32,901 nucleotides of DNA, taken from positions 1-32,901 of IMG/VR virus record IMGVR_UViG_3300033149_003834. One strand, given 5' to 3'. How positions within the stretch are numbered: position 1 is the first letter of the stretch; every line of letters begins with the position of its first letter. Both the position numbers and the translations under genes were made by a program. The notes beneath the pieces were generated by a model that saw nothing but the letters and a program-made list of their open reading frames with translations, made no database searches and was not told where the DNA came from. Below, piece by piece: positions 4,346 to 28,527 of this stretch. The DNA is from a virus.

Positions 4346-4346
4346 T

Positions 4347-4910: not shown

Positions 4911-5470
4911 CTTGTTCTCCGAAAAACTAGAAGACGGCGGCGTATTCTGTTACGGATTCCATGCTTCGCCTTCCTTGTCCTCCCGGTATCAAACACCCAT
5001 TCACGCTTGCAGAACTCTTGCTTCACATATTCCGCAGGCTGGCAATTGACATGGCTTCTCCCACTCTGTCCCAATCCAGCCCAAGTCACAATCAATCCCT
5101 TGGACGGGATTTTGCTCACTTGATCAAATAAGGCCTGCTCATATTCCTTTGGGACATGCTCTCCAACTTCGATGAACAATCCCCATTCAGCCACGTTATA
5201 GAGATGGGAACAATCAGCTGTCAGGTCTGCCCACAAAACTAATCCATCAGTGGCTTCCTCAATGTTTGGCGTGCCATCTACCCCAAATATCTGATAGCCA
5301 TGATCCCGCAACGCTCTCAAATATCGGGCTTTTCCTGCTCCTATATCAATCACCGTGGCATTGATAGGAATAATACGGCAAAGACCTTCTACCAATGACG
5401 GGATTAGTGGACGCCGCTGCTTGACCCGCCGGTAGGCTCCAGGGGGCGTATATCTGTCAGACTTCTCCAC
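4907..5470 (-). CDS. Class I SAM-dependent methyltransferase
   Basis: Rossmann-type methyltransferase of 187 aa. Motif I VIDIGAGKARYLRAL, motif II strand FGVDGTPN, and the usual D-L at the third strand (LWADLTADC). It contains GLIVTWAGLGQSGRSHVNCQ, similar to small FkbM-like or sugar methyltransferases from phage glycan loci. I chose GTG at 5470, which has GGGAGAGG 7 nt upstream and lies 4 nt after the phosphatase stop; ATGs at 5518 and 5500 lack ribosome sites and would overlap the phosphatase by 44 or 26 bp. The substrate is unknown, probably a sugar. Confidence 0.8.
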   Translation of the reverse strand: MEKSDRYTPPGAYRRVKQRRPLIPSLVEGLCRIIPINATVIDIGAGKARYLRALRDHGYQIFGVDGTPNIEEATDGLVLWADLTADCSHLYNVAEWGLFIEVGEHVPKEYEQALFDQVSKIPSKGLIVTWAGLGQSGRSHVNCQPAEYVKQEFCKREWVFDTGRTRKAKHGIRNRIRRRLLVFRRTR

Positions 5471-5474
5471 ACCA

Positions 5475-6203
5475 CTACCTCTCCCAATAATCAATTCCAT
5501 CCAAGACACCATTAGCAAATGGGAAAGGGGAATGATATATGTCCTGACCTCGCACTTCCCTTAATTCCGGTTGGGCATTGGAAACTACAATCCCTTTGAA
5601 TCCTTTGTTGAACATCCCCAAATCATTGCCAGAGTCACCGGCCACAATAACATGCTCTGGAGGCAGACCTACGCCCAGAGACACATAATCCTTTCGAACC
5701 TTCTCAACCGCTGTCCCCTTGTTAATCCCAGACGGCAGGACATCCAAGAATTGATTGTAGCTATAGACCAGGTCCACTTGCAGACCCTTTTCGATTAAGC
5801 CCTCTTCAATATCCTTCAAGAATTCACGGTCAAGTCCTTCTGCATAATAGCTAAGCTTGTATTCAGTTTGATACTTCGACGGCTGTTCCGTCAGTTCAAC
5901 CAACTGGGAAAGGTATTTCCGGACAGAATGCCTGTTCCAACTTTCTGCATGCTTACTAGGCCAAATGCTTTTACTCCTAAGATAACAATACCAAATGGCT
6001 GTCCCCATCTCAGCTATGATAATATGGGGTAATGGGGGTCTATGAAAGCAAACCAACTCTTTCACCTCGCTCAGGATTCTTCCCGTAGCATATACCAAGA
6101 TGAACTCATCACAGTGCTTTTTCCACCATTTGGTAAAAGCAATCAGGGAGCGACGATGCCCTAACAATGTCCCATCCAAATCGCAAACAAGCAGTTTTCT
6201 CAT
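5475..6203 (-). CDS. HAD phosphatase of sucrose-phosphate phosphatase type
   Basis: 242 aa. HAD motif I LLVCDLDGTLLG (Asp8 nucleophile, Asp10), motif II VYATGR, a C2-type cap in the middle, motif III region INKGTAVEKV, and motif IV GDSGNDLGMF. The C-terminus ends with FPFANGVLDGIDYW, like the 'AxGILEGI' end of bacterial sucrose- or mannosylfructose-phosphate phosphatases. It would dephosphorylate the product of the adjacent GT4 synthase. Start is the ATG overlapping the synthase stop as ATGA; a GTG two codons earlier is less likely. The synthase-phosphatase order and overlap match known sucrose or mannosylfructose operons. Confidence 0.85.
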   Translation of the reverse strand: MRKLLVCDLDGTLLGHRRSLIAFTKWWKKHCDEFILVYATGRILSEVKELVCFHRPPLPHIIIAEMGTAIWYCYLRSKSIWPSKHAESWNRHSVRKYLSQLVELTEQPSKYQTEYKLSYYAEGLDREFLKDIEEGLIEKGLQVDLVYSYNQFLDVLPSGINKGTAVEKVRKDYVSLGVGLPPEHVIVAGDSGNDLGMFNKGFKGIVVSNAQPELREVRGQDIYHSPFPFANGVLDGIDYWER

Positions 6204-7444
6204 CCCCACAGCCCTTTCAAAATCTGCTCCACAATGCCAGCCCAGGTATAGCAGGCCCGTGCTTTCTTGGGTCCATGCGAAGCAAGCCTATCCTTGAGCT
6301 GCGGATAGGTCAGCACTATACTTAGGGCCAGGCCAAACTCTGTCGAGTCCAAAGGATTTGCGGGCAAACATTCCCGTCCCCATTCAAGCTGCTCCCACAA
6401 TCCACCCTTCGTCGTTATCACCGTGGGGATGCCGCAAGCCATCGCTTCTACTGCTGTCATCCCAAACGGCTCGTAGCGACTGCTTAATGCAAACACATCA
6501 GCAGCGTGGTAGTGCTTTGCCAATTCTTCATCAGGAATGTAGTCCTTGAAAAGCACGTTATCTCGGAGGTCCAAATCGGCTGCCTTCATCCTTAGCAGAT
6601 CCATTTGCTCCTGCTCTTCTGCACTTGGTTCCGAGGAACCTACTGCCAAAACCAATTGCACATTTGGATGTCTCTCTACAACTAAAGGCATAGCCTCCAA
6701 CAACAAGTCATAGCCTTTATTAGACGCCATTCTCCCAAGTGCCAATATAATCGGACCCTCCAAGCCAAGTTCCCTTTTGATCACTCGCCTGGAAGCAAGG
6801 GACAATGGGAAGAATCTACTGTCATCATAACCTGGTGGGACAATCAAAATCTTGTTGGCGGGAACATCATATTCCCCAGCCAGCAGGATATTCCGCTGTT
6901 GCACCGTGGTAGCCACCAGCAAGTCGCACTCATCATAAACAACTTTCTCTTCCCGGATGCGATGAGCAAAGTTAAATTCCTTCTCCAATTCTTCTGGATC
7001 ACCGTGCATGCTATCCCTCTTCCATGAACCGATTGAATGAGGTGTATGGACGTGGGGAATGTGAAGGTGATTGGACAAGGTTTGGCCCGCTAAGCCACCA
7101 TCCCAATAGTGAGAGTTGATGAATGAGTATTGGTATTTCCGCAGTTTGACATACTCTTCTACTCTAGCAACCCATTCCGGAATATGATAACACAGAATCT
7201 CCTTCGGAATGAACTTGTTGCCACCACAAGGAAACCGAAGAATCCTTATCTTGGGACCCAGATGATCCACCGATGCTAGCCCTCCAAACTGGCGAGTGAG
7301 AATGTCCACATAATAGCCCAACTTAGCCAACTGTTTGGAAACTTCCAACACATAGACGACCTGTCCGCCTGTATCAGGCTTACCCAATTCCGGACAAGCA
7401 GAGACATAGCCATGCGTTGAAATCATTGCTACTCGTTTTGGCAT
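6200..7444 (-). CDS. GT4 synthase of sucrose-phosphate / mannosylfructose-phosphate type
   Basis: 414 aa, GT-B fold. The N-terminus has VAMISTHGYV, then GKPDTGGQVVYVLEVSKQLA and VDILTRQF, the signature of bacterial sucrose-phosphate synthase and mannosylfructose-phosphate synthase. SHYWDGGLAG and HTPHSIGSWK also fit. The C-terminal half has ALGRMASNKGYDLLLEA and EPFGMTAVEAMACGIPTV (E-x7-E for the donor nucleotide). It should join a hexose from UDP-glucose or GDP-mannose to fructose-6-phosphate, giving a phosphorylated non-reducing disaccharide. I use ATG 7444; the TTG four codons upstream lacks support. An extended -10 promoter lies about 175 bp upstream. Which sugar donor is used cannot be decided here. 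Confidence 0.85.
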   Translation of the reverse strand: MPKRVAMISTHGYVSACPELGKPDTGGQVVYVLEVSKQLAKLGYYVDILTRQFGGLASVDHLGPKIRILRFPCGGNKFIPKEILCYHIPEWVARVEEYVKLRKYQYSFINSHYWDGGLAGQTLSNHLHIPHVHTPHSIGSWKRDSMHGDPEELEKEFNFAHRIREEKVVYDECDLLVATTVQQRNILLAGEYDVPANKILIVPPGYDDSRFFPLSLASRRVIKRELGLEGPIILALGRMASNKGYDLLLEAMPLVVERHPNVQLVLAVGSSEPSAEEQEQMDLLRMKAADLDLRDNVLFKDYIPDEELAKHYHAADVFALSSRYEPFGMTAVEAMACGIPTVITTKGGLWEQLEWGRECLPANPLDSTEFGLALSIVLTYPQLKDRLASHGPKKARACYTWAGIVEQILKGLWG

Positions 7445-7479
7445 TTGAATCACCAATAGAGATACTTGGCTATATAAAC

Positions 7480-7569
7480 TTAGCGACCGTGCTTTTCAGC
7501 AAAATCGTCCGCCGTCCTTCCCAAAACACCCTCACAGTCCCACTTGCAATTATAGTTGCGCCCATGCAT
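7480..7569 (-). CDS. Possible 29-aa Cys-containing leader ORF
   Basis: Small open frame in the 203-bp gap before the GT4 synthase gene. It reads MHGRNYNCKWDCEGVLG and ends with DDFAEKHGR, with two cysteines four residues apart. The composition is protein-like, but there is no Shine-Dalgarno site. The frame stays open upstream to TTG 7617 and GTG 7614, which would be nearly at the predicted transcript start. It could be a real small protein, the remnant of a longer one, or chance. Low confidence. Confidence 0.3.
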   Translation of the reverse strand: MHGRNYNCKWDCEGVLGRTADDFAEKHGR

Positions 7570-7619
7570 CAAATTGCTTGGACGAATTTTCGGTGCCCAA
7601 GCTTCCAAGGACACCAACC

Positions 7620-7628
7620 ATTATATCA
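7620..7628 (-). promoter_or_regulatory. Extended -10 promoter before the disaccharide genes
   Basis: The minus strand reads TGATATAAT, a perfect TGnTATAAT extended -10 element, at the start of the only sizeable intergenic gap inside the glycan cluster. No good -35 lies at 16-18 nt, which is normal for extended -10 promoters. Transcription would start near 7613 and run into the GT4 synthase and phosphatase genes, giving them an internal promoter. Confidence 0.5.
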
Positions 7629-7647
7629 AGTAGCCTGTACATAGCGG

Positions 7648-8610
7648 TCACACATTTGGCAACTCCTGCTCAGGGAACTGAACTAACATTTCTGGCAGCA
7701 CCTGATTCCAACCAATCCGTCCGAGACCTGCTATCCCCTTCTCATGATCATTCCAATACAGCCCAGCTTGATCGCACTCCATCAAAATCGGTTTCTTCTC
7801 TATGAATTGAAAAGGACCCTCTGGATTATCAGCATGCCACAGACAAACAGAGCGCCTGCTGATTGGATGGCCAGCATCGGCGAACAGCCGCATAGCGCGA
7901 TTGCTGAAGTACATTCCGTAAGCCAACATCCAATAAGTTCCATTTGCATAAACAACACTTGCCCGCTCAATTTCCCTCAGCACTCTGTAGCCCTTCCATT
8001 TAGGATCATCCAACGCCACCCCCCTCACCGTCCATGGGCCTCCCAGCTCAACACTACGGGCAACGACTTGCCTCGGTGGTACACCCCAACGATGGCCTCC
8101 TGTCGTAACGTACATGAACCAGTCCCCACTCCTTGGATCATGAAACAGATAGGGATCGCGGCAAGAATGAAGCCATTCACCTGTCTCTTCATGCCGCCGA
8201 ATCGTGTTAAATTCGGGCAGACGAGGCTCAAAGGGAACGCGCTGCAATCTAAAGTCCTTGCCATTATGGGACGTTGCGTACAAAAGAGACTGCCCCATCT
8301 TCTTCCCGCCGGCATGATAGTCCAAATGAGAGAGGAAGAGGTGAAGGATGTTCCCTTCTGGAACAACATCCCCTGCATTTACAACACCGTATTTCCTCGG
8401 AGATGTAATAACCTTGCCTAAAAATTCCCAGTGCTTCCAATCATCACTACGGAATCCAACAGCGTGACTACGACGGAGGAACATTGGAAGGCTTGTGTCC
8501 TTGTGGTATTTAGTGGTCCTAGCCAAAGTGTAGACCCACCACTGTCCCTTCCACCTGCACCAGCAAGGGTCCCAGATACGATATTGCTTGCTGTCCCAAT
8601 CTGGTGTCAT
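7648..8610 (-). CDS. GH32/43/68-like five-bladed beta-propeller glycosidase
   Basis: 320 aa, soluble, without a signal peptide. Repeated W/Y-rich blades and the clan catalytic pattern: IWDPCW (Asp14, nucleophile or base position), SCRDPYLFHDP (Asp152, transition-state stabiliser; the RDP motif of GH32/68), and EIERASVVY (Glu213 or Glu215, acid/base). Family members cleave or transfer beta-fructosyl units (sucrose, levan) or arabinosyl/xylosyl units. Its position just upstream of the sucrose-phosphate-type synthase and phosphatase suggests action on the same sugar (inference). It overlaps the preceding glycosyltransferase by ATGA. GH43-like or GH130-like phosphorylase alternatives are possible. 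Confidence 0.75.
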   Translation of the reverse strand: MTPDWDSKQYRIWDPCWCRWKGQWWVYTLARTTKYHKDTSLPMFLRRSHAVGFRSDDWKHWEFLGKVITSPRKYGVVNAGDVVPEGNILHLFLSHLDYHAGGKKMGQSLLYATSHNGKDFRLQRVPFEPRLPEFNTIRRHEETGEWLHSCRDPYLFHDPRSGDWFMYVTTGGHRWGVPPRQVVARSVELGGPWTVRGVALDDPKWKGYRVLREIERASVVYANGTYWMLAYGMYFSNRAMRLFADAGHPISRRSVCLWHADNPEGPFQFIEKKPILMECDQAGLYWNDHEKGIAGLGRIGWNQVLPEMLVQFPEQELPNV

Positions 8611-9461
8611 TTTCTTAGCCGCCGGAGGAATTTGTTTTTCACATTGTCAATCCATCTGTCCATCCCACCAACATCTTCAATCAAACATTTCTTGAACAAC
8701 GGCATCCAGAGATCATGGCCTTTCCAGGATTTTCCGGGACGGACGTTGCAATCACCGTGATAGTGGCGTATGACCACGTCTTCATCCGTTAGCTTGCTTG
8801 ACTGATACATAGGTGAACAATTGTATTTCCCATTCTCACACATCACTGTCATTTGGTCTGGGCAGAATCGCAACATCATCAAATGCAAGACTTTCTCATC
8901 AGCAATGAAAGTTTTCTTGGCAGCCAGCGTCCACTCGTACCATGCCGGCAACACTGGGGAATTGGGGGGCGTGGCCCACACTCCACCATTCACACTCGGC
9001 CATCTCTCTTGCGTTGCTCTGTCAATCAGAGTCTTATCAATCTTCCCAAATGCCTCCAATCCCCGCACTCGGCTCCTAATGATTTTCCCACCTGTCATCC
9101 AATCACAAAACTGAGTAGCAGTAAATCCACGATCTTCGGCCATTTCAAATAGGGGATTGAGACTGCCATGAATAGTTGTGTCTGCATCCAAATACAACGC
9201 CACATCTGCCCGTGATTGCTGGGCTACTTTCATCTTGTCAAGGAATTGACTGTTCTTGCCACGATATTCCGGCTCCCGACAATATATCTTCGAGACTCTA
9301 AGCCTTTTATCTGCAGCAATTATGCTAAGCAAGTTGAAGGATTCCGGCCAAGCGTGAACAATTACATCTCCCCGCCAATGATTCTTCAGTGTCCACAAAC
9401 TCACCACCAAATATGGTAAATGGGCAGGACCAGACATCAGGTAGAAAATCTCTCGTTTCAT
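8607..9461 (-). CDS. GT-A glycosyltransferase (GT8-like)
   Basis: 284 aa. Begins REIFYLMSGPAHLPYLVVSLWTL, the usual strand-helix start of GT8-like enzymes, then FLDKMKVAQQSRADVALYLDADTTIHG with the metal-binding DAD at 92-94, and VNGGVWAT in the acceptor region. RHYHGD near the C-terminus resembles the H-x-x-G-x-x-K/H motif that binds metal in GT8 enzymes. A retaining nucleotide-sugar transferase is likely; substrate unknown. The start ATG overlaps the stop of the FkbM gene (ATGA) with AAGGAG 11 nt upstream; a GTG four codons earlier sits on top of that site and is rejected. Confidence 0.82.
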   Translation of the reverse strand: MKREIFYLMSGPAHLPYLVVSLWTLKNHWRGDVIVHAWPESFNLLSIIAADKRLRVSKIYCREPEYRGKNSQFLDKMKVAQQSRADVALYLDADTTIHGSLNPLFEMAEDRGFTATQFCDWMTGGKIIRSRVRGLEAFGKIDKTLIDRATQERWPSVNGGVWATPPNSPVLPAWYEWTLAAKKTFIADEKVLHLMMLRFCPDQMTVMCENGKYNCSPMYQSSKLTDEDVVIRHYHGDCNVRPGKSWKGHDLWMPLFKKCLIEDVGGMDRWIDNVKNKFLRRLRK

Positions 9462-10153
9462 TGCAGATAGCACTCCTTGTTAATTAAGGAAATAGGGCAA
9501 GTACAATACTCGGGCCGGAATAAATACTCCCGCACATAGACGGCATCGCACTGTCCACTCTCCGTCCTATTTGTATGGGCAGTCTGCCGAACAAAGCCAT
9601 TCTTCGCCAGAAAGCAGTGAGTCTCCAATACACCACACCAGCCCGGCGAAGGCTGGTTGTTCGTCATCTCTATATTGATGACATCGACTGATTTGAGAAA
9701 ATCAACGCCCCCCTGCAAAGCAGCCAGCTCGCTCCCTTCACAATCCAGCCAGAGTAAGATGGGTTCACCGTGAACGGTAGGATCAGGGAACATCTTGTCC
9801 AGAGTTGTGATAGGAACGGTGAATTGCACATCACCATCTTTAGACTGCCTGCGTTTGTATAAGGATGCTCCATCTTTGTGCTTTTTGCGACTGTTCAACA
9901 ATACCTCGCCTACCATATTTCCGATTGCGCAGCCAAACAATGTACCGGGATACTTCCCCTCCAATCCTGCGATAAGTTCCGGATGGGCCTCACATCCTAC
10001 AAATTTCACGTTAGGCCAGCAATCCCTCATTACATCCACTTCCTGATAATGAACGCCAATTCCTACCTGAAAAACAACTTTTGGCCTCCAGTTCAGCAGC
10101 CCGGCAACCTTTGCAACAGCTACCCCACTACGACGCAGCAATCTTGATCCCAC
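9458..10153 (-). CDS. FkbM-family SAM methyltransferase
   Basis: 231 aa. VVFQVGIGVHYQEVDVM (motif I), FVGCEAHPELIAGL (acidic end of strand 2), GCAIGNMVGEVLLN, then VPITTLDKMFPD and the family signature LWLDCEGSELAALQGG followed by INIEMT. FkbM enzymes O-methylate sugars and polyketides and are common in phage and bacterial glycan loci. I chose GTG at 10153 because it has AAGGAG 7 nt upstream and lies 14 nt after the radical-SAM-like gene; the ATG at 10195 overlaps that gene by 28 bp without a ribosome site. Confidence 0.85.
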   Translation of the reverse strand: MGSRLLRRSGVAVAKVAGLLNWRPKVVFQVGIGVHYQEVDVMRDCWPNVKFVGCEAHPELIAGLEGKYPGTLFGCAIGNMVGEVLLNSRKKHKDGASLYKRRQSKDGDVQFTVPITTLDKMFPDPTVHGEPILLWLDCEGSELAALQGGVDFLKSVDVINIEMTNNQPSPGWCGVLETHCFLAKNGFVRQTAHTNRTESGQCDAVYVREYLFRPEYCTCPISLINKECYLQ

Positions 10154-10167
10154 AACAATTCTCCTTG

Positions 10168-10872
10168 CTAGAATTTCTTTCTTCTTCGATGGCAAGTCTT
10201 ACAAACCGGCAAAGTACGGACCCTTTTACGAAGATCATCTTGCAATGCTTTCATTCTCGGGTACTCCCGCTGCATAATGGACCCCAGTGCCTCTTCATTC
10301 ACATTGCCAAACGTCACCGTCTCGGCATAGTCAACACAACATAAGCCCACATTGCCGGAGGCCCGAATCGTCAAGTCATTTAGGGGAGCAAAACAATCAC
10401 GGTAACTGTCAGGCCCATCTCCAGGATACAAAATCGATTGCTTCAACTGGGCCCGGCCTACCCTAGCTGCTTTCATCCTGCCCACACTACGCAGTCTCTT
10501 CCTCTCCGCCCTGCTATACCCGCTCACCACTAAACTGCTCAAACCAACATCAAACAGTTCTCCGGCTAATGTCCTATTGAGATACCAACCGTTCGTAATA
10601 AGCAAGGGCTGAATACCGGGCAATTCTTGGGTAATGAATCCAATCAGCCAATAGAGTCGAGGGTCAATCAGGGGTTCGTTGAATGCATGAAAAGCTACCT
10701 TCTTTCCATTACCCCACCCCATTCCTTTCAACTCTTCTATAATCTTTTTGATTGTGTTCAGTGGTAAAATGTGGACCTGTTTGAAAGTATGAACAGGGCA
10801 CAACTTATGCTCTCCCTGCAGCGGACAGCGATTTGATAGCTCAAACGTGATTCGTGCTACGTCTTCAAACAC
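10168..10872 (-). CDS. Radical-SAM/SPASM-like protein with an unusual cysteine motif
   Basis: 234 aa. The N-terminal ITFELSNRCPLQGEHKLCPVH resembles the start of radical SAM barrels, but the usual CxxxCxxC is replaced by C-x8-C with a neighbouring His. The middle has FHAFNEPLIDPRLYWLI and PLLITNGW, matching the 'GEPLL' and 'TNG' strands of radical SAM proteins. The C-terminal part (LTIRASGNVGLCCVDY, FGNV, VCKTCHRR) matches SPASM/Twitch cluster domains. Role unknown; it could modify a peptide or a sugar. GTG 10872 (GGAGG four nt upstream, 16-bp overlap with the previous gene) is preferred over starts that overlap that gene by over 100 bp. Confidence 0.65.
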   Translation of the reverse strand: MFEDVARITFELSNRCPLQGEHKLCPVHTFKQVHILPLNTIKKIIEELKGMGWGNGKKVAFHAFNEPLIDPRLYWLIGFITQELPGIQPLLITNGWYLNRTLAGELFDVGLSSLVVSGYSRAERKRLRSVGRMKAARVGRAQLKQSILYPGDGPDSYRDCFAPLNDLTIRASGNVGLCCVDYAETVTFGNVNEEALGSIMQREYPRMKALQDDLRKRVRTLPVCKTCHRRRKKF

Positions 10873-11657
10873 ATTGCCTCCGCTACTGCTTCTTTGATTC
10901 CTCTTTGTGTAGAGCGAATTTTCCAGCCCAGCCGCTTCACTTGGATTGCTTTCACTCCGAACCATCCTCTCGTCGCCATATACCAAAGAAAGCCATCTTG
11001 AGATGGGACCGGCATCTGACAAGGACCGCAAACTGCACTTGCCCCCACAGCGCATTTACGAGTGAAGTCTGTTTTGAAGAAAGCACACCAACTCACCGTG
11101 CGTTTGTGATTGAGCCGGCTGGCTCCCGGCTTCGGTCTGAGATTCAATGGAGGATGCAAAGACCATGGTCGCAACTTGTCACGGTGCTTTTCAACCCACT
11201 GGTCCAAAAAGACCATCTGGTCCGGTGGCTTGGTAAAAGACCATCGCGGGCCAATGAAGGCCGGCTCTCCCTCAAACCAATCATCCTCAATCCAGCAGTT
11301 CTGTCCCATAGCAATTGCATCCGTATCAACTTTGAGCCAGTAGGGAGTCAGAACCTGCATAGCTGGAACGAAGACATAACCCGTCAGCATTTTGTTGCGC
11401 TGGGGATTGGTCCATTTGCTTCCCCCATCCCCATTATACTCAGTTCTCAGAGGAGGCCAAGGAACCACGTTGAGATCCGGAACTTTCACCACACTCCGAA
11501 CTGCAGCTCGGTTCAGACTATCACAATCATAGAAGACAAGCCACGGGCGTTTGAAAAGATCAGGTTTGTGCAATTTCCAAGTAGGTAATGTCCAAGATAG
11601 CTGCTGCAAATGCTTAGCATCTACTCCCACCACTACCGTAAAATCAGGCACTCCCAT
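10857..11657 (-). CDS. Glycosyltransferase-like paralog 1, with DxD
   Basis: 266 aa. VVVGVDAKHLQQLSWTLPTWKLH and RPWLVFYDCDSLNR, then YWLKVDTDAIAMG with a DxD-type DTD at 111-113, WFEG, RWSFTKPPDQM, VSWCAFFKTDF and CGPCQMPVPSQDGFLWY. The nucleotide-sugar-transferase-like layout with a DxD suggests a GT-A enzyme, but no named family is obvious. It is a tandem paralog of the next gene upstream (11644-12480). Start ATG has GGAGGAACTG directly upstream and overlaps its neighbour by 14 bp. Confidence 0.7.
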   Translation of the reverse strand: MGVPDFTVVVGVDAKHLQQLSWTLPTWKLHKPDLFKRPWLVFYDCDSLNRAAVRSVVKVPDLNVVPWPPLRTEYNGDGGSKWTNPQRNKMLTGYVFVPAMQVLTPYWLKVDTDAIAMGQNCWIEDDWFEGEPAFIGPRWSFTKPPDQMVFLDQWVEKHRDKLRPWSLHPPLNLRPKPGASRLNHKRTVSWCAFFKTDFTRKCAVGASAVCGPCQMPVPSQDGFLWYMATRGWFGVKAIQVKRLGWKIRSTQRGIKEAVAEAMCLKT

Positions 11658-12480
11658 CAGTTCCTCCTTTCAGCACGTCCATGGAGAAGCTGCGGACAGG
11701 ACGATGGTCCCAACCACACTTCTTCATGTTGACCCGTTTGATTCCCAAACCAGCCCGCTTAGCAACATACCAAAGGAAACCATCTTGAGATGGGACTGGC
11801 ATCTGACAGGGACCACAAGTCCGCTCGGCAATAAGCGAGCAGTCCTTTGTAAAATTTGTTTTGAAGAACGCACACCAACTGATTATTCGACGGTGATCAA
11901 TTCGATCCGGCCTACTGGGGACAAGATTCAAGGGAGTAGTGCTAGCGAGCCCTCCCACATCATTCTCATTATTTCTTACCCATTGGTCCAACTTCAGCAT
12001 TTGATCTGCCGGCTTTGTGTAGCCCCAGCGATGAGAAATGATGACTGGATTGCCCTCAAACCAATTCGGATCAATCCAATCATCTTGCCCAGTTGCAAAC
12101 ACACAGCAATCCAACTTCAGCCAATAATGTGTTTTTACATAGGCGTCAGGGATGTGAACGAAGCCGGCCAACATCTTGTAGCGTTGTGGGCTGCTCCAAA
12201 GTGCCTCATATTGCTGGTTCTCCGTCTGTCCATCAATTGTCTGTGGTTTACCAAAGAACACGCCGTCAAGATGCGGCCATGGATATGTTTGCAAGTTTGG
12301 GTGGTCCACTATATGATGAACATTGTCACAGTTCACCTCATCACGGTCGTAGAAAACAATCATCGGATGGTTCAATAGAGAAGGTTTGTGCTCCTTCCAA
12401 GTCGGCCAAGTGCGACAAAGCATGGAAAGATGCTTGTTATCAACACCTACCACTACCGAGTAATCTATTTCACCGACCAT
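11644..12480 (-). CDS. Glycosyltransferase-like paralog 2, DxD lost
   Basis: 278 aa, co-linear with the 10857-11657 protein: VVVGVDNKHL, PTWKEHKPSLL, SPQRYKMLAGFVHIPDAYV, WFEGNP, TKPADQM, ISWCAFFKTNF and the long shared block GPCQMPVPSQDGFLWY. At the metal-binding site the first copy has DTD; here the same position reads DCC (124-126), so the second acidic residue is gone. Either this copy is inactive or metal-independent, or it acts with its partner. ATG 12480 aligns with the start of the paralog; the ATG at 12555 would add 25 unrelated residues and overlap the cupin gene by 91 bp. Confidence 0.7.
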   Translation of the reverse strand: MVGEIDYSVVVGVDNKHLSMLCRTWPTWKEHKPSLLNHPMIVFYDRDEVNCDNVHHIVDHPNLQTYPWPHLDGVFFGKPQTIDGQTENQQYEALWSSPQRYKMLAGFVHIPDAYVKTHYWLKLDCCVFATGQDDWIDPNWFEGNPVIISHRWGYTKPADQMLKLDQWVRNNENDVGGLASTTPLNLVPSRPDRIDHRRIISWCAFFKTNFTKDCSLIAERTCGPCQMPVPSQDGFLWYVAKRAGLGIKRVNMKKCGWDHRPVRSFSMDVLKGGTDGSA

Positions 12481-12887
12481 AGGTTTCCGTACTGTCTCAT
12501 TAGCCTGTGTGCAAGGTCGTCCAAATGCTCCACTTTGCTCATCCCTCCTTGGCACAACCGGATGATGTCGTCGTTCCTAACCGAGCTCCCATCGGGGAAG
12601 TATTCCTCGATTGCTTCACCATCCTCCAGCACTTGAAATTGATGGACGATGCCGCTACGAACGTCCAAGGTGTTTCCATTTGTCAAAATCTTCCTATCAA
12701 TCTTCCAAGCATGGAAAGTGACAATAGCAATGATCCCAGAGCGGACAATGAATCGATTGGCCCGATCTTCATGATAGTGAATACTGCAATACCCACCAGC
12801 TTTCAACTCCAACTCGTGGAGGCTATGCAAATCCGATTCATGGAGGCATCGTGTCCGGCCCCAGAACTTGTCTTCCCAGCTACTCAT
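12465..12887 (-). CDS. Cupin, mannose-6-phosphate-isomerase type II-like
   Basis: 140 aa, single cupin barrel. WGRTRCLHESDLHSLHELELKAGGYCSIHYHEDRANRF has the His37-x-His39 metal pair, and a later VRSGIVHQFQV has the third His. Small proteins like this resemble the isomerase domain of mannose-6-phosphate isomerase/GDP-mannose pyrophosphorylase and sugar-binding cupins. Within this operon it may isomerise or bind a phosphosugar, possibly supplying mannose-6-phosphate or fructose-6-phosphate (inference). ATG 12887 overlaps the upstream stop as ATGA; ATG 12899 is an alternative. Confidence 0.75.
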   Translation of the reverse strand: MSSWEDKFWGRTRCLHESDLHSLHELELKAGGYCSIHYHEDRANRFIVRSGIIAIVTFHAWKIDRKILTNGNTLDVRSGIVHQFQVLEDGEAIEEYFPDGSSVRNDDIIRLCQGGMSKVEHLDDLAHRLMRQYGNLWSVK

Positions 12888-13930
12888 TTCTTGTACCATT
12901 GTCTCAAATCAAACGGTTTTTGGGGTACATCCACCGTGACCATATCCATTGCTATGTCAAAGGGAACATAAGGAAACGCTCGCAGTCTTGATTGCCCATT
13001 GCAATTGAAAATGGACAATCCAAATCTCTCAAACACCCCATCCTTCTGCATCCGGCATAGCCAATCATTCACAATCCTAAACTGCCTGTTGTTTGAAAAG
13101 CAAGTTTCTTCATCTCGCTCTTCTTCAAAAGAATAGTTGTCACAAAGATCCCTTGTAGGGTCCATTCCAAAATCGATGCCCAGTAGGAAGATTTTCCTCA
13201 CTCCCATATAGTATAATAATCGGATTCCGATCAACATTGTGCATACTGTCTTTTCTTCCCCAGTTCTGTCCACTCCAGCATTGTGATTGCCCCATGCAGC
13301 TTGGGGGTCCAAAAAGAAGGAATTATCCGGTCTCAGCCAAGCCCGTCTAGCAAAGCCCCAGACATTTGGGGCATCACAAGCGGACATCCTTTGTCCACCG
13401 ATTACTAAAGGAACAAACTCACCGTCAGGCCGCTTGTGACGGAGCCTGCCCCGCCTCCTCTTCAGTTTGGGGACGGGAACAAACTTCATGATTCCAGGGT
13501 CCATCCATATTCCATCGTGAAATTTGGACGGTGGATCGGAACAGACAAAGGCCTGTGGATGGAAGCGATCATGACCAGCTACGTTATTTACGCACAGAGC
13601 CCAGCTACCAGGGGTGTTTAAGCGCTCCAAAGGCAAATCATTAGCGGAGGGCCCTCCCCCAACAAGGAAGGCAGAACGGCCAATTAAGAGGTTGTGTAGA
13701 GCTTTGGTTGGTCTAGAGGCCCTATCGACAACAAACAGGAAATCTGAGAACCTTTCAGAGAAATTCTCATCTCCCACGTGCAGCTTCTCTTTGCACCCTC
13801 GGCAGGAAGCTATTTGGGCCTTGTTCCTTCGTCTAGTGCAGACATCATGGACGCGACAGATGTGGACTGGTTCGTCACTATCCACAATCTCTTTACTGCG
13901 AAGTTCTCCAAGATACACACAATGAATCAT
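12884..13930 (-). CDS. DUF115/MAF-like sugar transferase with N-terminal zinc motif
   Basis: 348 aa. Residues 22-50 hold a cysteine/histidine cluster (CRVHDVC, then C-x2-C), a small zinc-binding arm often seen in glycosyltransferases of phage and environmental glycan loci. From about residue 80: SAFLVGGGPSANDLPLERL (glycine-rich nucleotide loop as in DUF115/MptE-like and motility-accessory-factor proteins), then ALCVNNVAG, AFVCSDPP, and KIFLLGIDFGMD. MAF proteins add pseudaminic or legionaminic acid to flagellin and related enzymes are sialyltransferase-like. A CMP-sugar would fit with KdsB in the same cluster (inference). First gene of the glycan block; starts 6 nt after the previous stop. 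Confidence 0.72.
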   Translation of the reverse strand: MIHCVYLGELRSKEIVDSDEPVHICRVHDVCTRRRNKAQIASCRGCKEKLHVGDENFSERFSDFLFVVDRASRPTKALHNLLIGRSAFLVGGGPSANDLPLERLNTPGSWALCVNNVAGHDRFHPQAFVCSDPPSKFHDGIWMDPGIMKFVPVPKLKRRRGRLRHKRPDGEFVPLVIGGQRMSACDAPNVWGFARRAWLRPDNSFFLDPQAAWGNHNAGVDRTGEEKTVCTMLIGIRLLYYMGVRKIFLLGIDFGMDPTRDLCDNYSFEEERDEETCFSNNRQFRIVNDWLCRMQKDGVFERFGLSIFNCNGQSRLRAFPYVPFDIAMDMVTVDVPQKPFDLRQWYKK

Positions 13931-15559: not shown

Positions 15560-16474
15560 TCAACCTCCTGGAAACAATTGATTGAGATCCGAAGAAGGAT
15601 AGACACCTTTCCCTCCAACTTGTAGCTTGGCAAACCGATTCAACTCAGGTTGCCAGAAATGATTGTGCCCAACAGTTACCCCCGCAATCTCTATATGCTT
15701 CTCTACAAACTTCATGTCAATTTCTACAGGAGGTTGATCCTCATCTGTCCTCCAAGTATATTGCTCGCGCATTGAATACCCTACGAACAGAATAGTCTCT
15801 GCTGGAGCATCATGAAGGATCGACATCGGCCTGCTATTGACCTGCCCCAATCTCGATCTCATCAAAGGCATCAATTCGTCCAAATAGCTCCGTGTGATCT
15901 GGGGCCAACGAACGGACCATGTCAATTCCGGGATCACCTGAGCGACTTGGGTATTCGGACCCTGAACTTTCGGTCCAGCCATTGACTCCCACGTAGCTTC
16001 TCCCTGAACTTGTAGCATTAAGAACTCACCGCTAGCATCGGCAGAGACTTCTAAGAAAGTGGAAGGATCATTTGGATCCGTATTATTGGGCTTGGCCGTC
16101 TCATACTGAATTGTGACCTTCAGAAACTTAGCATAGGTTCCGGTAGGGGGAAATGGATCGGTTCCGAAAGGATCAGTTGGCTTCCCAACTTCATGGGGTT
16201 CCCAACTTACAGATTTGGTAAACAGCCGATTCAATCCAGGATAAGCTCGCGTTGCTGTGAAGTGGAAAATCCCTCCCCAGATGATCATTGGTGGGAAAGA
16301 CTCCAAAGCAAAGTCTAAAAGATCCGAAGCTTGTATGATGTATTGCTCCGTGATCTTAGCGTTCTCTTCCTCAAAAGACCCCTTTGGATACCCTTCCACT
16401 AATTTGTAAGGGATGCCAAAAGGGGCAGGAGCAGTCCGCAGCCTCCATGTAGCCGGGTCTTCATATATACTCAT
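15560..16474 (-). CDS. Probable distal tail protein
   Basis: 304 aa, no clear named domain. Contains ITEQYIIQASDLLDFALESFPP, GIFHFTATRAYPGLNRLFTKSVSWEPHE and AETILFVGYSMREQYTWRTDEDQPPVEIDMKFVEKHIEIAGVTVGHNHFWQPELNRFAKL. Such mixed beta proteins immediately after the tape measure gene are usually distal tail or tail-hub proteins; that assignment here rests on position. ATGA overlap with the tape measure stop. Confidence 0.5.
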   Translation of the reverse strand: MSIYEDPATWRLRTAPAPFGIPYKLVEGYPKGSFEEENAKITEQYIIQASDLLDFALESFPPMIIWGGIFHFTATRAYPGLNRLFTKSVSWEPHEVGKPTDPFGTDPFPPTGTYAKFLKVTIQYETAKPNNTDPNDPSTFLEVSADASGEFLMLQVQGEATWESMAGPKVQGPNTQVAQVIPELTWSVRWPQITRSYLDELMPLMRSRLGQVNSRPMSILHDAPAETILFVGYSMREQYTWRTDEDQPPVEIDMKFVEKHIEIAGVTVGHNHFWQPELNRFAKLQVGGKGVYPSSDLNQLFPGG

Positions 16475-18471
16475 GTCAACACCCCCTGGCCTTTTTCCTT
16501 TACGATCTTGAGCAGTTCATCTTGCTTCTTGATACCCATCTCCAATAATTTGTTCCGCTTATCATCTTTATCTCCCTCCTTCGGTTTCAACAGGGCATCT
16601 TGAATCTTCTTCCCATAGTCCCTAAAACCAACACGCTCTCCGACCTTGAAAAATGCTTCCCCAGCTGCTTTACCAGCATCAGCAGCAGCAGCAGCATCTT
16701 CCTTTTTGTCCTCTTTTTTAGGCAGCCCAAATTCAGGTCTTTCCATTTCAAGTGCTTTTTTATCCGACTTGAGCTTGTCCCAAACTTCTCCTACCACTGC
16801 CTTCGCTCTTGCTTGGGCTTGTTTACTAGGAGTCATTGCCTTTGCAAGGTCGGGAACTTCTCCTTTGAGCCCCTTCTGAAATCCTCTGAAAGCTTTCCCT
16901 AAAGCCCCTCCCACCTCCTTTTTAATAGCACTACCAAGACCCTCCCCCAAAATTGCACGTTTAATTATTTTTGGGACTCTTTTCATTACATCCCAAATGA
17001 ATTTGATTAGCGCGATAAAGAGTTCACCTATCTTCTTCATAAGCCATAAGAAGACTAAGAAAGATTTGCGGACGGCAACTCCAAGCAATTGGGGCATAAT
17101 CTTCACAAAATTCTTGATGATGTCCCATATAATAATGAAAGCTGCATAGAGTAGCTTTGGAAAATTGCTCCAAATCAACCCCCAATTCTGTATGATAACA
17201 AGAAACCATTCTGAAAGATTCATTACAAAGTCTGACACAAACTCTAACGCCTGTAACAGAGCCTCCCCAATCGTTTCAGGGAGTTTTTGAATATCCACAC
17301 CCGTGAACGCAGAAATCTTCGCAATTATTTCATTCAACCCCCGCATGAAAGCAGCAAAGAATACAGTGAAGGCCTCCTTGATTCTCTCCCAAGCATACTT
17401 TATCTTGGCTATGCTTATCGCATAGCGTTTTTGCATACTTTCAGCAGACTTCCACCACCCAATCAGATTCTGGATTCCCGCGATCAGCGCTCCTAGTGCA
17501 GCTCCAATCAATACAAGCGGGATCAATATGACCGATTGGATAAATACCTTCTTCATAGTAACTCCGAGCAGCCTTGCCATCATTCGCCCTAACAAGAAGG
17601 CTGCAACAAGTCCCATAACAACTTTCGTCATGTTGGCGATGTGCCCAATTATCACCTTGTGCTGTTCCACTATGGGAGCGAAAGTTTCTACCAATGCCAA
17701 CTTCATTCTTGTAAAAGCCTTCCGCATTGGAAGCAAAGCATCTCCAATAGAAGTATAGACAAGCCTAATGTTATCATTGAGCGTACTAATAAGACCATCC
17801 AAAGACCTAGATTGTTTTTCCATCAGATTGAAAAACAAGCCACCCTTTCCTGTCATGTTTTGAAATGCTTTCTGTACATCTTTGAAACCGATCTTGCCAT
17901 CAGAGACCATCTTTTTGATTTCACTATCCGCCACATTGAACTGCTTCGCCAGCGTACCAACAATGGGGACACCTGCATTGATTAACTGTAACAAATCCTG
18001 CCCCATCAATCGGCTAGCAGCTCGAACCTGCCCGAATACAACAGCAAGCTCCCCAAAATTCTTGCCCGTCCCCGCTGATACATCACCTAACATCAACATC
18101 ATTTCGAGTAGATCCTTCTGCTCCACTCCAAATGCCAACAAAGTCTTGGCGGCCCTTAGAACTCCAGGCATTTCAAACGGAGTCTTAGCAGTGAAATCCC
18201 GGAGTTTGATTAGCATTTCCTGGGCCTTTTCAGCACTACCTAACATCGTCTCGAAAGAAATGGTAGTCCTTTCCATAGTCTTGGCCAGGTTGACTCCTTT
18301 CTCAATTGCAGCCCTCCCAGTAGCAGCAACGCCGGCAGAAATTCCGCCTATTGCCGTTAGAACATCCTTCAGAGCTGACTGCACCGTACTTTGCGTACCT
18401 TGCAGATCACTGCCTAACATGGAGGAGTCTGCTCTTACACGGATGAACGCTTTTGCCAGTTCCAATCCCAT
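16471..18471 (-). CDS. Tail tape measure protein
   Basis: 666 aa. The N-terminal region about 60-250 matches the tape measure domain: TISFETMLGSAEKAQEMLIKLRDFTAKTPFEMPGVLRAAKTLLAFG, GTGKNFGELAVVFGQVRAASRLMGQDLLQLINAGVPIVG, KAFQNMTGKGGLFFNLMEKQSRSLDGLISTL. Two hydrophobic stretches follow (MGLVAAFLLGRMMARLLGV and LIPLVLIGAALGALIAGI). A second hydrophobic/aromatic block and a charged, Lys-rich C-terminus come after. It sets tail length and is injected with DNA; at roughly 0.15 nm per residue a tail near 100 nm is expected. ATG lies 1 nt after the stop of the frameshifted chaperone gene. Confidence 0.93.
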   Translation of the reverse strand: MGLELAKAFIRVRADSSMLGSDLQGTQSTVQSALKDVLTAIGGISAGVAATGRAAIEKGVNLAKTMERTTISFETMLGSAEKAQEMLIKLRDFTAKTPFEMPGVLRAAKTLLAFGVEQKDLLEMMLMLGDVSAGTGKNFGELAVVFGQVRAASRLMGQDLLQLINAGVPIVGTLAKQFNVADSEIKKMVSDGKIGFKDVQKAFQNMTGKGGLFFNLMEKQSRSLDGLISTLNDNIRLVYTSIGDALLPMRKAFTRMKLALVETFAPIVEQHKVIIGHIANMTKVVMGLVAAFLLGRMMARLLGVTMKKVFIQSVILIPLVLIGAALGALIAGIQNLIGWWKSAESMQKRYAISIAKIKYAWERIKEAFTVFFAAFMRGLNEIIAKISAFTGVDIQKLPETIGEALLQALEFVSDFVMNLSEWFLVIIQNWGLIWSNFPKLLYAAFIIIWDIIKNFVKIMPQLLGVAVRKSFLVFLWLMKKIGELFIALIKFIWDVMKRVPKIIKRAILGEGLGSAIKKEVGGALGKAFRGFQKGLKGEVPDLAKAMTPSKQAQARAKAVVGEVWDKLKSDKKALEMERPEFGLPKKEDKKEDAAAAADAGKAAGEAFFKVGERVGFRDYGKKIQDALLKPKEGDKDDKRNKLLEMGIKKQDELLKIVKEKGQGVLT

Positions 18472-18472
18472 C

Positions 18473-18862
18473 TTACTTCTTCCGCCTCCCTTTCTTCCGC
18501 TCCTCTTCCATGAGCTGTCTAGCCACCGATTTGCCAGCGATTCTACCCCTTATTTCTGAGCCGTCCTCTGCCCGTCCTTTGATTTTCCCATCCTTAGCCA
18601 TTCCTATCACTGCTAAGGGAGTGGCCGTTTGGGAACGTCTCCCCTGCTTCGACTTCAATATCTTCCTGTCTGTCAAAAGCATGAGGACCTGGTCTAATGT
18701 AAAATTCGCAACTTGATTAGGAGTATAGCCGTGCCCACCTTCCCATGAATTGTCACACAAGACTCGAACGTGCCACGTCGTTATCCCGTGCAAAAGACCC
18801 CACTGCGAGATGTTCTCTTCCGGCTCGCTGCTCTCTCGGTTGGCAGCAGCGAGCCCTATCCA
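18473..18862 (-). CDS. Tail assembly chaperone extension (T part), made by -1 frameshift
   Basis: This frame has no convincing start codon or ribosome site. It is open from before the chaperone stop codon to TAA at 18473, and joins the chaperone frame at the slippery site GGGAAAT. A -1 slip gives a 340-aa G-T fusion (211 codons of G, then 129 codons here). The extension reads WIGLAAANRESSEPEENISQ, then a segment NFTLDQVLMLLTDRKILK, and ends in a basic tail ERKKGRRKK, typical of gpG-T T domains, which recruit the tail tube protein to the tape measure. A TTG at 18793 with an ORF of 106 aa is only a by-product. Confidence 0.85.
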   Translation of the reverse strand, partial: WIGLAAANRESSEPEENISQWGLLHGITTWHVRVLCDNSWEGGHGYTPNQVANFTLDQVLMLLTDRKILKSKQGRRSQTATPLAVIGMAKDGKIKGRAEDGSEIRGRIAGKSVARQLMEEERKKGRRKK

Positions 18863-18868
18863 TTTCCC
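18822..18868 (-). promoter_or_regulatory. Programmed -1 ribosomal frameshift signal with stem-loop
   Basis: Slippery heptamer G-GGA-AAT (18868-18862) in the chaperone frame, fitting X-XXY-YYZ and one base different from lambda's GGGAAAG. Six nucleotides later, across the TAG stop, starts a perfect 11-bp stem, GGCTCGCTGCT (18855-18845) with AGCAGCGAGCC (18832-18822), and a 12-nt loop. Spacing and stability are those of a frameshift-stimulating hairpin. Absence of a T-tract after it argues against a terminator. Confidence 0.9.
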
Positions 18869-19494
18869 GCTGCTGGCGAGGAGAGCCTTTCAATCTCTCT
18901 TGCCATTTCAGCGAGAGCAGCAGGAGACTTACCCATTTCTGTTGCCACCTGCTCCCGAGTCACCCCATTCTGTTTGAATGCCATCCAAATGAAAGTGACC
19001 ATTCCATCAAAACTGCCCGTGATCCACCAGGACACATAGGGCACCTTAACTTTGCGGGGTCGTCCCTTTGTCAGGTGCTTGTAATCACGATAGCCCAAAG
19101 ATCCTTGATCAAGGGAAGTGGCGCAGAGCCTTTGAAGCTTGGCATTATCTATTTTTCCACTCAATCCATACTCCTTTGTAAGCCACCTTCTCAATTCTCC
19201 CGTAATAACTATGCTGGCAGGATCGTGGGCATGCTTTACTGGCAAATCGTCTACATCCCAGCGCGCGGCCAGTTCGAGTTTTTCGGACATCAATTGCATC
19301 CGATCAACTTTTGGTAGTAGGTCCGCATTGTCTGAAAACGTCTTGAGGTAGCAGCGTTTGTATTGATCCAAGCAATATCTTTCAACCTCTGTTAATTCTT
19401 GGATAGTTAGAGGTCTGGCTTGGCACTCCTTGCCATCAATCATAATAAAAGAAGGCCCAGGAGTTCCAAGAGCCCTAGCCATGTCATCAGGCAT
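18856..19494 (-). CDS. Tail assembly chaperone (gpG-like)
   Basis: 212 aa, the in-frame product of the G/GT pair located just before the tape measure gene. Helical and charged; includes LTIQELTEVERYCLDQYKRCYLKTF, ELAARWDVDDLP, ITGELRRWLTKEYGLSG and VSWWITGSFDGMVTFIWMAFKQNG. The C-terminal end is AREIERLSSPAAGNG, with the slip site covering the last codons. Family chaperones coat the tape measure protein during tail assembly. ATG preceded by AAGGGGAATTGA. Identification rests on position and frameshift layout more than on sequence motifs. Confidence 0.85.
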   Translation of the reverse strand: MPDDMARALGTPGPSFIMIDGKECQARPLTIQELTEVERYCLDQYKRCYLKTFSDNADLLPKVDRMQLMSEKLELAARWDVDDLPVKHAHDPASIVITGELRRWLTKEYGLSGKIDNAKLQRLCATSLDQGSLGYRDYKHLTKGRPRKVKVPYVSWWITGSFDGMVTFIWMAFKQNGVTREQVATEMGKSPAALAEMAREIERLSSPAAGNG

Positions 19495-20126: not shown

Positions 20127-20555
20127 CTAGGGAAGTGTTCGGGCAGTTGCTCCGGCCTCACCTGGATAATAATACACTCCATCTGCCCCCCAAGAACTCG
20201 TCCATCCAATGATCTCTTCAGTGTCAACATCCACCGTGAGATTGAAATCATTGCAGAGAGCCCTCGGGAAATCCCAATACAGGCTCACATTGTCCAACCA
20301 AAGGACAGCGATCGCTACGTCCTCGGGTTGGAAAAGGTCAAACACCTCATCAGTGGTGTCGTACTTTCCCTCTGCCGTAAAAGTGGCATCCTTACGACCC
20401 GCAGCACGGTTGGTGAACCCAGAAGAATCACTGTCCCCCCATTCACTACCGCCTGCTAGTGTGGGATTCACGGCCCATTGAGTTGTTCTGGCGACTTGGG
20501 AAGTTCCGACAACAAATTTCCCGTTTCGGCCTGTCAAAGTATTGAGCGAACTCAT
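20127..20555 (-). CDS. Major tail (tube) protein
   Basis: 142 aa. Reads SLNTLTGRNGKFVVGTSQVARTTQWAVNPTLAGGSEWGDSDSSGFTNRAAGRKDATFTAEGKYDTTDEVFDLF, the layout of small tail tube proteins that start with 'G..G.V..G...VA....W' and continue into a beta sandwich. Position between neck genes and chaperone fits. It has by far the strongest ribosome site in the window, as expected for the most abundant tail protein. Confidence 0.8.
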   Translation of the reverse strand: MSSLNTLTGRNGKFVVGTSQVARTTQWAVNPTLAGGSEWGDSDSSGFTNRAAGRKDATFTAEGKYDTTDEVFDLFQPEDVAIAVLWLDNVSLYWDFPRALCNDFNLTVDVDTEEIIGWTSSWGADGVYYYPGEAGATARTLP

Positions 20556-20595: not shown

Positions 20596-21825
20596 TCATG
20601 TTTGGCTTGACCAACTTGAACTTGAGACTGAAGAACTAGTGGACAACGATGATGATCGAGATGACGAGTCTCCTACCTTATCCAATGCTACCCAAATCGT
20701 ACCAGTAGCACTTCCACTGATTGGACCATAATCGTAAGCATCTGGAAGTTGACCGGCACCGCCCCCGCTTTGTTGCCAACAATCACCAGTCTTGTTATTT
20801 GGGGCATCTGATAATGTCCATCTGTTAGTACCACCACTGTCCCACCATAAATAGAACAATCCATTGCTATAGTAATTTCTATTGTTGAGAGATCCAGCTC
20901 GCGTATATTCCCCCAATACTATGGAAGGACTAACACCAGACCTAACTGGTCCACACCAAAGCGGTTCCAAATTGCTGGAGCTACTTGACTGGGAACTGCT
21001 ACTGCTCTCAGAACGCGAACTCACCGAACTACTGCTGGATTGGCTGGAGAAACTGCTGCTCTGCGAACTGACTGAGCTGCTGCTAACAGAACTTATGCTG
21101 GAAGCACTGGAAGCGCTTGAGGCGCTAGACCAGCTCACCAAACTGGACGTGCTATTGCTGATGCTAGAGGAGGAAACCGAACTGGATTTGCTGCTGAGTG
21201 AACTGGATTCGCTGCTGAGTGAACTACTGCTGGAACTGACAGACGATGATTCTGAAGAACTGCTCTCATTGTCATCATGCCTACCCAATATCCAAATACT
21301 GTAGTTGACAGCCCCGCCAAATGCCCGCAATCGAATACGATGACTGCTGCCGTCCACTACATCAAACCCAGACTCCGCAGGCTGGTACATTAGTATCACA
21401 CCACCACCCCGCAGCGCCCCACCTGTAGCTACCGTATGGCTGCCCATTGGCGTCCAACCATTGGTAGGATCAGGTATAACTTCCAGCTGTCCTGCAAGAG
21501 CCACATCGTTATTATTCTTGATTTTGATGGCGACAATCTCTTCCAAAGCCATCGCTTGTCCAACAATATCATTGCCAGCACCAGCGCCAGCATCAAACCC
21601 AGCAAAATCATACAGATCCAAAGTGATAGCCCCGCCGGAACCCAGATCCTTGGTTAACCATTGCCAAGCTCGATTTGCCTGATTTGCACTGACACCATTT
21701 GTCAAGGTGTCATTAGTGTTTCCATTCACTGCTCCACTAACAATCACCCCATCATCCATAGTATTGCGAACATTCGCCAGCAATTGGGCAATCACTTTTG
21801 GGCTGGCTACACTTCGATTTGCCAT
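20596..21825 (-). CDS. Structural protein with long Ser-rich linker
   Basis: 409 aa in three parts. Residues 1-186 are a beta-rich domain (WQWLTKDLGSGGAITLDLYDFAGFDAG, NDIVGQAMALEEIVAIKIKN, QLEVIPDPTNGWTPMG, RLRAFGG). About 187-284 is nearly pure Ser with E, Q, V, L, I, W and K interruptions, including an S-W-S-S-A-S-S segment. Then a small domain (LNNRNYYSNGLFYLWWDSGGTNRWTLSDAP ... TGTIWVALDK) that resembles repeat carbohydrate-associated domains in viral and environmental proteins. A short Ser tail ends SSSWSSQT. Location between terminator and tube genes points to a virion surface protein. RBS region has the usual spacing to the preceding gene. Confidence 0.6.
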   Translation of the reverse strand: MANRSVASPKVIAQLLANVRNTMDDGVIVSGAVNGNTNDTLTNGVSANQANRAWQWLTKDLGSGGAITLDLYDFAGFDAGAGAGNDIVGQAMALEEIVAIKIKNNNDVALAGQLEVIPDPTNGWTPMGSHTVATGGALRGGGVILMYQPAESGFDVVDGSSHRIRLRAFGGAVNYSIWILGRHDDNESSSSESSSVSSSSSSLSSESSSLSSKSSSVSSSSISNSTSSLVSWSSASSASSASSISSVSSSSVSSQSSSFSSQSSSSSVSSRSESSSSSQSSSSSNLEPLWCGPVRSGVSPSIVLGEYTRAGSLNNRNYYSNGLFYLWWDSGGTNRWTLSDAPNNKTGDCWQQSGGGAGQLPDAYDYGPISGSATGTIWVALDKVGDSSSRSSSLSTSSSVSSSSWSSQT

Positions 21826-27665: not shown

Positions 27666-28355
27666 CTATGACTGGCTCGACCAGGACGAACTGGACATTG
27701 AACTGCTAGATGATGAAGTTGAAATGCTGCTTACCGATGAAGCAGAGCTGGCAACACTCGACCAGGACGAACTGGACGCACTAGAAACAGACGAACTAGA
27801 AGCAGAACTAACACTAGCACTGCTACTTGACACACTAGACTGCGACGAACTAGATGCCGAACTTCGCAAGCTTGACCAGGATGAACTGGAAATGCTGGAC
27901 GAAGATTCGCTAGAAACAGAACTTGAGCTGGATGCGCTAGACTGGCTTGAAGATGAACTGGAGCCAGAACTTGCGCTGGATGCGCTCGACCAGGACGAAC
28001 TAGATTCACTGGAAACAGAACTTGAGCTGGATGAGGACAAATCCTCCATATGAAGGATCTGCAATCTATTTTCTTGACTACTATATGGTCCCGGGAACTG
28101 CAAATCAGCTGTTTGAAAGATCAACTGGTCCGGCGCACTAGTCGTCCCATCGGCCAATGTGTCTTTCAAGATTGCTTGGAAAATGTCATCATCGGGCAAA
28201 ACTTGGGTAGTCAGCTCCACAGCCGGTCCCAGAGTGGCATTGATTGTGAGAGCAGGGGGCGTATCATCACCCGCCCGTGAAACCCTCCGAATCGTCAGCA
28301 AACGACTCGCGAGGCCGGAGGGAATTCCCAGATGAAATGTGACGTTCTTTGGCAT
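27666..28355 (-). CDS. Ser-rich structural protein
   Basis: 229 aa. The first 106 residues are a compact beta domain (NVTFHLGIPSGLASRLLTIRRVSRAGDDTPPALTINATLGPAVELTTQVLPDDDIFQAILKDT) resembling phage surface proteins. Residues 107-229 are more than 70% Ser with regular Ala/Val/Trp/Gln/Glu breaks, ending SSSSWSSQS, very close to the end of the 20596-21825 protein (SSSWSSQT). The Ser tail could be a flexible spike or an O-glycosylation substrate. ATG 28355 has TTTGGAG 7 nt upstream. Confidence 0.65.
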   Translation of the reverse strand: MPKNVTFHLGIPSGLASRLLTIRRVSRAGDDTPPALTINATLGPAVELTTQVLPDDDIFQAILKDTLADGTTSAPDQLIFQTADLQFPGPYSSQENRLQILHMEDLSSSSSSSVSSESSSSWSSASSASSGSSSSSSQSSASSSSSVSSESSSSISSSSWSSLRSSASSSSQSSVSSSSASVSSASSSSVSSASSSSWSSVASSASSVSSISTSSSSSSMSSSSWSSQS

Positions 28356-28527
28356 GATATACTCCAAAAAGAAAGGCCACTAGAAATGCCGGCGTCCTTA
28401 CAATAAGGCAACTCAGCACTGCCGCGGCCTGTGTCACACTCAGCGCACCTAGACAGTCTTTATTTTCTCAATATAGAACGAACAACCGTCTCTTACAATA
28501 CCTATTTCAACGAAATCCTTGGAAAAT
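28356..28527 (-). other. 172-bp intergenic region holding a promoter
   Basis: Longest gap of the head block outside genes. It contains the promoter-like element at 28470-28498 and two copies of CTTACAATA, at the -35 and about 90 bp downstream (28397-28405). No ORF of note is seen on either strand. Confidence 0.5.
28470..28498 (-). promoter_or_regulatory. Candidate promoter for the head/tail genes
   Basis: TTGTAA (28498-28493, 4 of 6 to the -35) is followed after exactly 17 nt by TATATT (28475-28470, 5 of 6 to the -10). It lies about 115 bp before the Ser-rich gene and could feed protease, capsid and tail genes. Mid-strength match to sigma-70 consensus. Confidence 0.45.

Follow-up and report, generated by a model that had tools for sequence, protein, structure and literature searches.

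A conserved slippery heptamer and hairpin point to a programmed −1 frameshift at a putative tail assembly chaperone gene of an unannotated phage lineage

The sequence analysed here, a stretch of 32,901 nucleotides of viral DNA (IMG/VR record IMGVR_UViG_3300033149_003834, hereafter termed the window), harbours a gene, designated G, which ends in a slippery heptamer followed by a strong hairpin. The best reading of this arrangement, and one which is very probably correct, is a −1 programmed ribosomal frameshift by which two tail assembly chaperones would be made from one gene. The phenomenon is classical and known from phage lambda; what is new is its occurrence in a phage lineage with a chaperone family missing from the libraries searched.

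The genes in the tail part of the window are encoded by the minus strand, to which all coordinates of the following elements refer. ORF G (18856..19494), a putative tail assembly chaperone gene, specifies a 212-aa 0-frame product with the C-terminal end LSSPAAGNG*, and its 3′ end reads CCA GCA GCG GGA AAT GGA TAG. The heptamer (18862..18868) is in phase, being read as G GGA AAT in the 0 frame and as GGG AAA T in the −1 frame, and is followed by the 6-nt spacer GGATAG (18856..18861), the last three bases of which are the stop codon of G. The stimulatory stem has a 5′ arm GGCTCGCTGCT (18845..18855) and a 3′ arm AGCAGCGAGCC (18822..18832), separated by a loop of 12 nt (18833..18844). A preliminary description of this DNA had placed GGGAAAT in the correct frame, and it indeed runs from 18868 to 18862 within GCG GGA AAT GGA TAG; the 6-nt spacer, perfect 11-bp stem and 12-nt loop which that description listed are likewise all present, while the overlap it reported between the signal and the stop codon holds for the spacer and not for the stem.

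Finding an in-phase heptamer close to the end of G is in itself no rare event, as one occurred within the last 40 nt in 2% of shuffles of the end of G and the sequence downstream in which base composition was kept. In the same shuffles, a heptamer combined with a perfect stem 8 bp or longer arose at a frequency of about 2e-5, and a heptamer with an 11-bp stem was never obtained (0/400,000). The window hairpin, with its perfect 11 bp, has a folding energy of −22.5 kcal/mol (z −4.6 to −4.7), and none of 200 dinucleotide shuffles was as stable.

Relatives of G were confirmed by tblastn in viral contigs, and the comparison set consists of 22 distinct loci, i.e. the window and 21 further loci from viral contigs. 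The motif NNNAAAT is located exactly 10 nt before the G stop in all 22 loci (19 GGGAAAT and three AAAAAAT), GGNTAG follows it directly in 22/22, and the A-site codon is AAT (Asn) throughout, the heptamer and spacer being there by construction in the 7 of the 22 that came via a DNA pattern, which fixed neither the G and T proteins nor the 3′ arm of the stem at those loci. The invariant final T of the heptamer may also reflect the −1-frame Trp codon TGG which starts there, and is not to be over-read. When the signal-only DNA pattern RRRAAATGGNTAGGGCYYGC was run over 2.9 million viral contigs, 21 places were retrieved, 18 of which represent the G/T pair: 16, out of the 19 pattern places examined, were matched by the G profile as well as by the T profile (E below 1e-42), and the remaining two, L010 and L018, are members already known. 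The other three matches (L030, L032 and L039) are unrelated and were discarded as chance. The sequences in the T alignment had diverged too far to be used in pattern scans; tblastn of G against INPHARED returned no match, and a G profile search of genome contigs no relative.

A stem was found in all 15 first-aligned loci, where it comprises 8–11 pairs and starts 6 or 7 nt past the heptamer, with a loop which ranges among relatives from 5 to 55 nt. Across these 15 loci, position 9 of the 5′ arm exhibits six pair types and position 8 four, position 4 alternates between U-A and C-G, and position 3 between C-G and G-C. The mean pairing of each locus with its own arm was reached by 0/100,000 permutations of arms between loci, whether 15 or 22 loci were included. 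Since the stem sits within the T coding region, synonymous resampling of T codons was employed as a control, yielding a mean of −11.6 kcal/mol (sd 0.5) against −18.9 kcal/mol observed; the protein sequence therefore does not account for the pairing. Sliding the partner register reduced pairing from 100% to 34–52%, although this control is weaker than permutation and resampling because the registers had been picked for pairing. The preliminary description had named conservation of the heptamer and stem among relatives as a test of its −1 frameshift reading, and their conservation at 22/22 loci, together with the compensatory changes, lends that reading clear support.

These data also bear on the possibility that the hairpin serves in mRNA processing, attenuation or termination, and that the heptamer is fixed only by the need to code conserved residues in two frames. 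The heptamer region does code the conserved GNG* and GKW in the respective frames, yet its first three bases are always a homopolymer, GGG or AAA, even where the residue coded in the 0 frame differs (GN to KN), the position of the stem is tied to that of the heptamer, and the T frame would be left without a route of expression, all of which render this explanation highly improbable. Much the same degree of doubt attaches to transcriptional slippage, in which RNA polymerase, rather than the ribosome, would join the frames by adding or dropping a base: a run of 6–7 A is present at the site in L011, L014 and L017, but 19 of the 22 loci carry GGGAAAT, in which the run is too short for polymerase slippage, and the stem stands at ribosomal spacing (6–7 nt) from a heptamer of fixed phase. 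A 5-bp CGAGA/TCTCG match between the loop and the downstream sequence of the window was considered as a pseudoknot but is not supported, as own pairing was no better than permuted pairing across 15 loci (p 0.086) and loop length is so variable.

Ribosomal frameshifting at the heptamer would give access to the T extension (18473..18868), which comprises 131 codons in the −1 frame counted from GGG, plus a stop codon at 18473-18475. The 129 open codons up to the tape measure gene cited in the preliminary description need recounting in this respect: the frame is open to 18473 as claimed, with 128 codons past the G stop. The −1-frame product is conserved, with 12 residues invariant and 6 more nearly so among 15 sequences, and the third codon position of T changes most (0.64 versus 0.48 and 0.38). 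As previously noted, the second part of this frame can also be read as an ORF of 106 aa starting at TTG (18473-18793), and operon-like overlap is common in phages, so that T might be a separate gene expressed from an internal start (TTG at 18793 in the window), its overlap with G being incidental. In the window, however, two TTG codons are the only starts within the first 60 codons of the −1 frame and no Shine-Dalgarno-like motif was found before either, that at 18793 included, while L006 and L023 contain no ATG, GTG or TTG in the first 50 codons even though conserved T residues begin well ahead of codon 50. For these reasons T appears much more likely to be made by fusion than from its own start; a separate T gene, which would moreover leave the invariant in-phase heptamer and the covarying stem unexplained, is improbable. 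In several relatives the heptamer lies within a stretch of less than about 35 nt that is open in both frames (13 nt in L026). The −1 frame is open there for no more than about 13–31 nt ahead of the G stop, and the shift is thereby restricted to the heptamer region.

According to the frameshift model, most ribosomes would translate G and terminate at TAG, thereby producing the 212-aa protein, while some would pause on meeting the hairpin, the P site then being occupied by GGA and the A site by AAT. The two tRNAs would then slip back by one base, from GGA to GGG and from AAT to AAA, and translation would resume at TGG into T. That slippage occurs, and how efficiently, is inferred. The expected GT fusion is approximately 340 aa, with the junction SPAAGN-WIGLA if tandem slippage follows decoding of AAT, or SPAAGK-WIGLA if the slip precedes A-site decoding; the junction proposed earlier, AAG then GKWIGLA, counts the Gly twice and should read AAGN-WIGLA or AAGK-WIGLA. 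Both GGG and AAA as XXX are canonical in X XXY YYZ heptamers. In Escherichia coli, shifting is better at AAR than at AAY codons, and better at homogeneous ZZN codons (PMC4066793); the Asn codon AAT, which occupies the A site here, is in E. coli not as slippery as AAG and thus a point against the model.

The genomic surroundings of the G/T pair are consistent with a role in tail assembly. The gene for the 666-aa tape measure protein (16471..18471, minus strand; Pfam TMP_3, E 1.4e-24) has its ATG at 18471, adjoining the T stop, and in relatives tape measure families are likewise encoded downstream of T. Upstream of G, a 142-aa protein (20127..20555, minus strand) is by position the likely major tail (tube) protein; no family match was obtained for it, and it is 59–85% identical in all 14 relatives searched, where it is always encoded upstream of G. 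The G/T pair is consequently situated between the candidate major tail gene and the tape measure gene, which is the position of a lambda-type G/GT pair, and it further shares with that type a slippery site that lies in phase close to the end of the first ORF and is overlapped by a −1 ORF, as well as conservation of the signal and of both products. In the lambda-type class, G and GT are produced in a set ratio, and GT is required for tails and absent from virions. Position and architecture strongly support the assignment of G and GT as chaperones. In lambda, gpG and gpGT, at about 30:1, attach to the tape measure protein, and the tube protein is recruited through the T part (PMC5009743); by analogy, the tape measure protein would here be coated with many copies of G and few of GT, and the tail tube protein would be brought in by the T part.

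At the level of sequence and fold, neither G nor T gave a match above noise against Pfam and PHROG, and their comparison with lambda G and T yielded nothing significant (hhalign probabilities of 0.9% and 8.9%). The tail assembly chaperone fold is an HK97 gp13-like spiral. The AlphaFold2 model of G (pLDDT 83.6) displays an N-terminal beta hairpin followed by helices; it had no significant match in the PDB, the aligned entries covering mostly one helical stretch, and matched weakly to uncharacterised Caudovirales proteins of 146–169 aa (E 0.02–0.26). The T model was poor (pLDDT 64.8). The chaperone identity claimed in the preliminary description is hence upheld by position and architecture, while its word 'confirms' is too strong because no significant match to lambda G/T was found by sequence or fold; nor can one speak of a weak sequence similarity to the lambda chaperone, as no homology is measurable at all. 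The chaperone family of this phage lineage is thus absent from the reference phage and protein collections searched.

The term 'lambda-like' is consequently right for mechanism and layout only, and not as a statement of sequence membership. Shared with lambda are the order of major tail protein, G, T and tape measure genes (V-G-T-H in lambda), the joining of a −1-frame T by means of an X XXY YYZ site close to where G ends, and the heptamer GGGAAAN, with lambda GGGAAAG in the same phase. Lambda differs in that its site lies 22 nt before the stop, as opposed to 10 nt here, its A-site codon is AAG rather than AAT, and its site is not directly followed by a stable hairpin (z +1.5 versus −4.6 to −4.7). 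Closer parallels in the A site are offered by the predicted tail chaperone frameshift sites of the Caulobacter phages phiCbK (AAAAAAC) and Colossus (GGGAAAC) and of Burkholderia phage KL1 (GGGAAAC) (PMC3556154, PMC3483164), all of which have an A-site codon for Asn and lie at the end of the chaperone gene preceding the tape measure gene, in KL1 immediately before the G stop, but have C where the present sites have T as the final base. GGGAAAT was not found at phage chaperone sites in the literature searched, the scope of which excluded most subscription papers. Bacterial −1 signals of the dnaX, IS911 and IS3 types (PMC4066793) share the combination of a heptamer with downstream structure at short spacing; they occur in other genes, and no upstream Shine-Dalgarno stimulator is claimed here.

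The main value of the present set lies in its 22 diverged natural variants with covariation, which may serve the study of bacterial −1 frameshifting with an Asn codon in the A site. It also names a tail chaperone family without a Pfam or PHROG entry and provides a reliable annotation rule (GGGAAAT or AAAAAAT, plus GGNTAG, plus a stem) for joining the two ORFs in an unannotated phage lineage. We would put forward more tentatively, as a possibility we consider rather unlikely as a whole, that this lineage possesses its own chaperone family which always combines an A-site AAT with a strong hairpin, as opposed to the Lys codon and lack of a strong hairpin in lambda, and that one conserved G/GT cassette serves tape measures of different families. 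Were this the case, the constant AAT and strong hairpin would point to a host-specific mode of tRNA-Asn slippage, and the use of one cassette for different tape measures would place chaperone specificity outside the N-terminal region of the tape measure protein.

A number of additional observations were made in the regions adjacent to these genes. The N-terminal region of the tape measure protein varies under the conserved tail-tube-like/G/T cassette, belonging to TMP_3 in the window, L017, L022 and L025, to TMP_2 in L013, to PhageMin_Tail in L011 and to other PHROGs in L026 and L027; tblastn with the window tape measure protein yielded no match in L013, L026 or L027. GIY-YIG/NUMOD3 homing-endonuclease-like ORFs are present directly after T in L019 (9099-9674), whose contig ends within the ORF, and in L026 (6231-7001), where the ORF separates T from the tape measure gene and, as called, overlaps the end of T. 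Within the structural region of the window, the proteins encoded at 20596-21825 and 27666-28367 contain long serine-rich low-complexity stretches (SSSSVSSESS), which recur in L017. Downstream of the tail genes and on the same strand, a long run of genes (2923-12899), inspected by eye only, appears to encode glycosyltransferases, a sugar-nucleotide transferase, methyltransferases, a HAD phosphatase and a radical-SAM-like protein.
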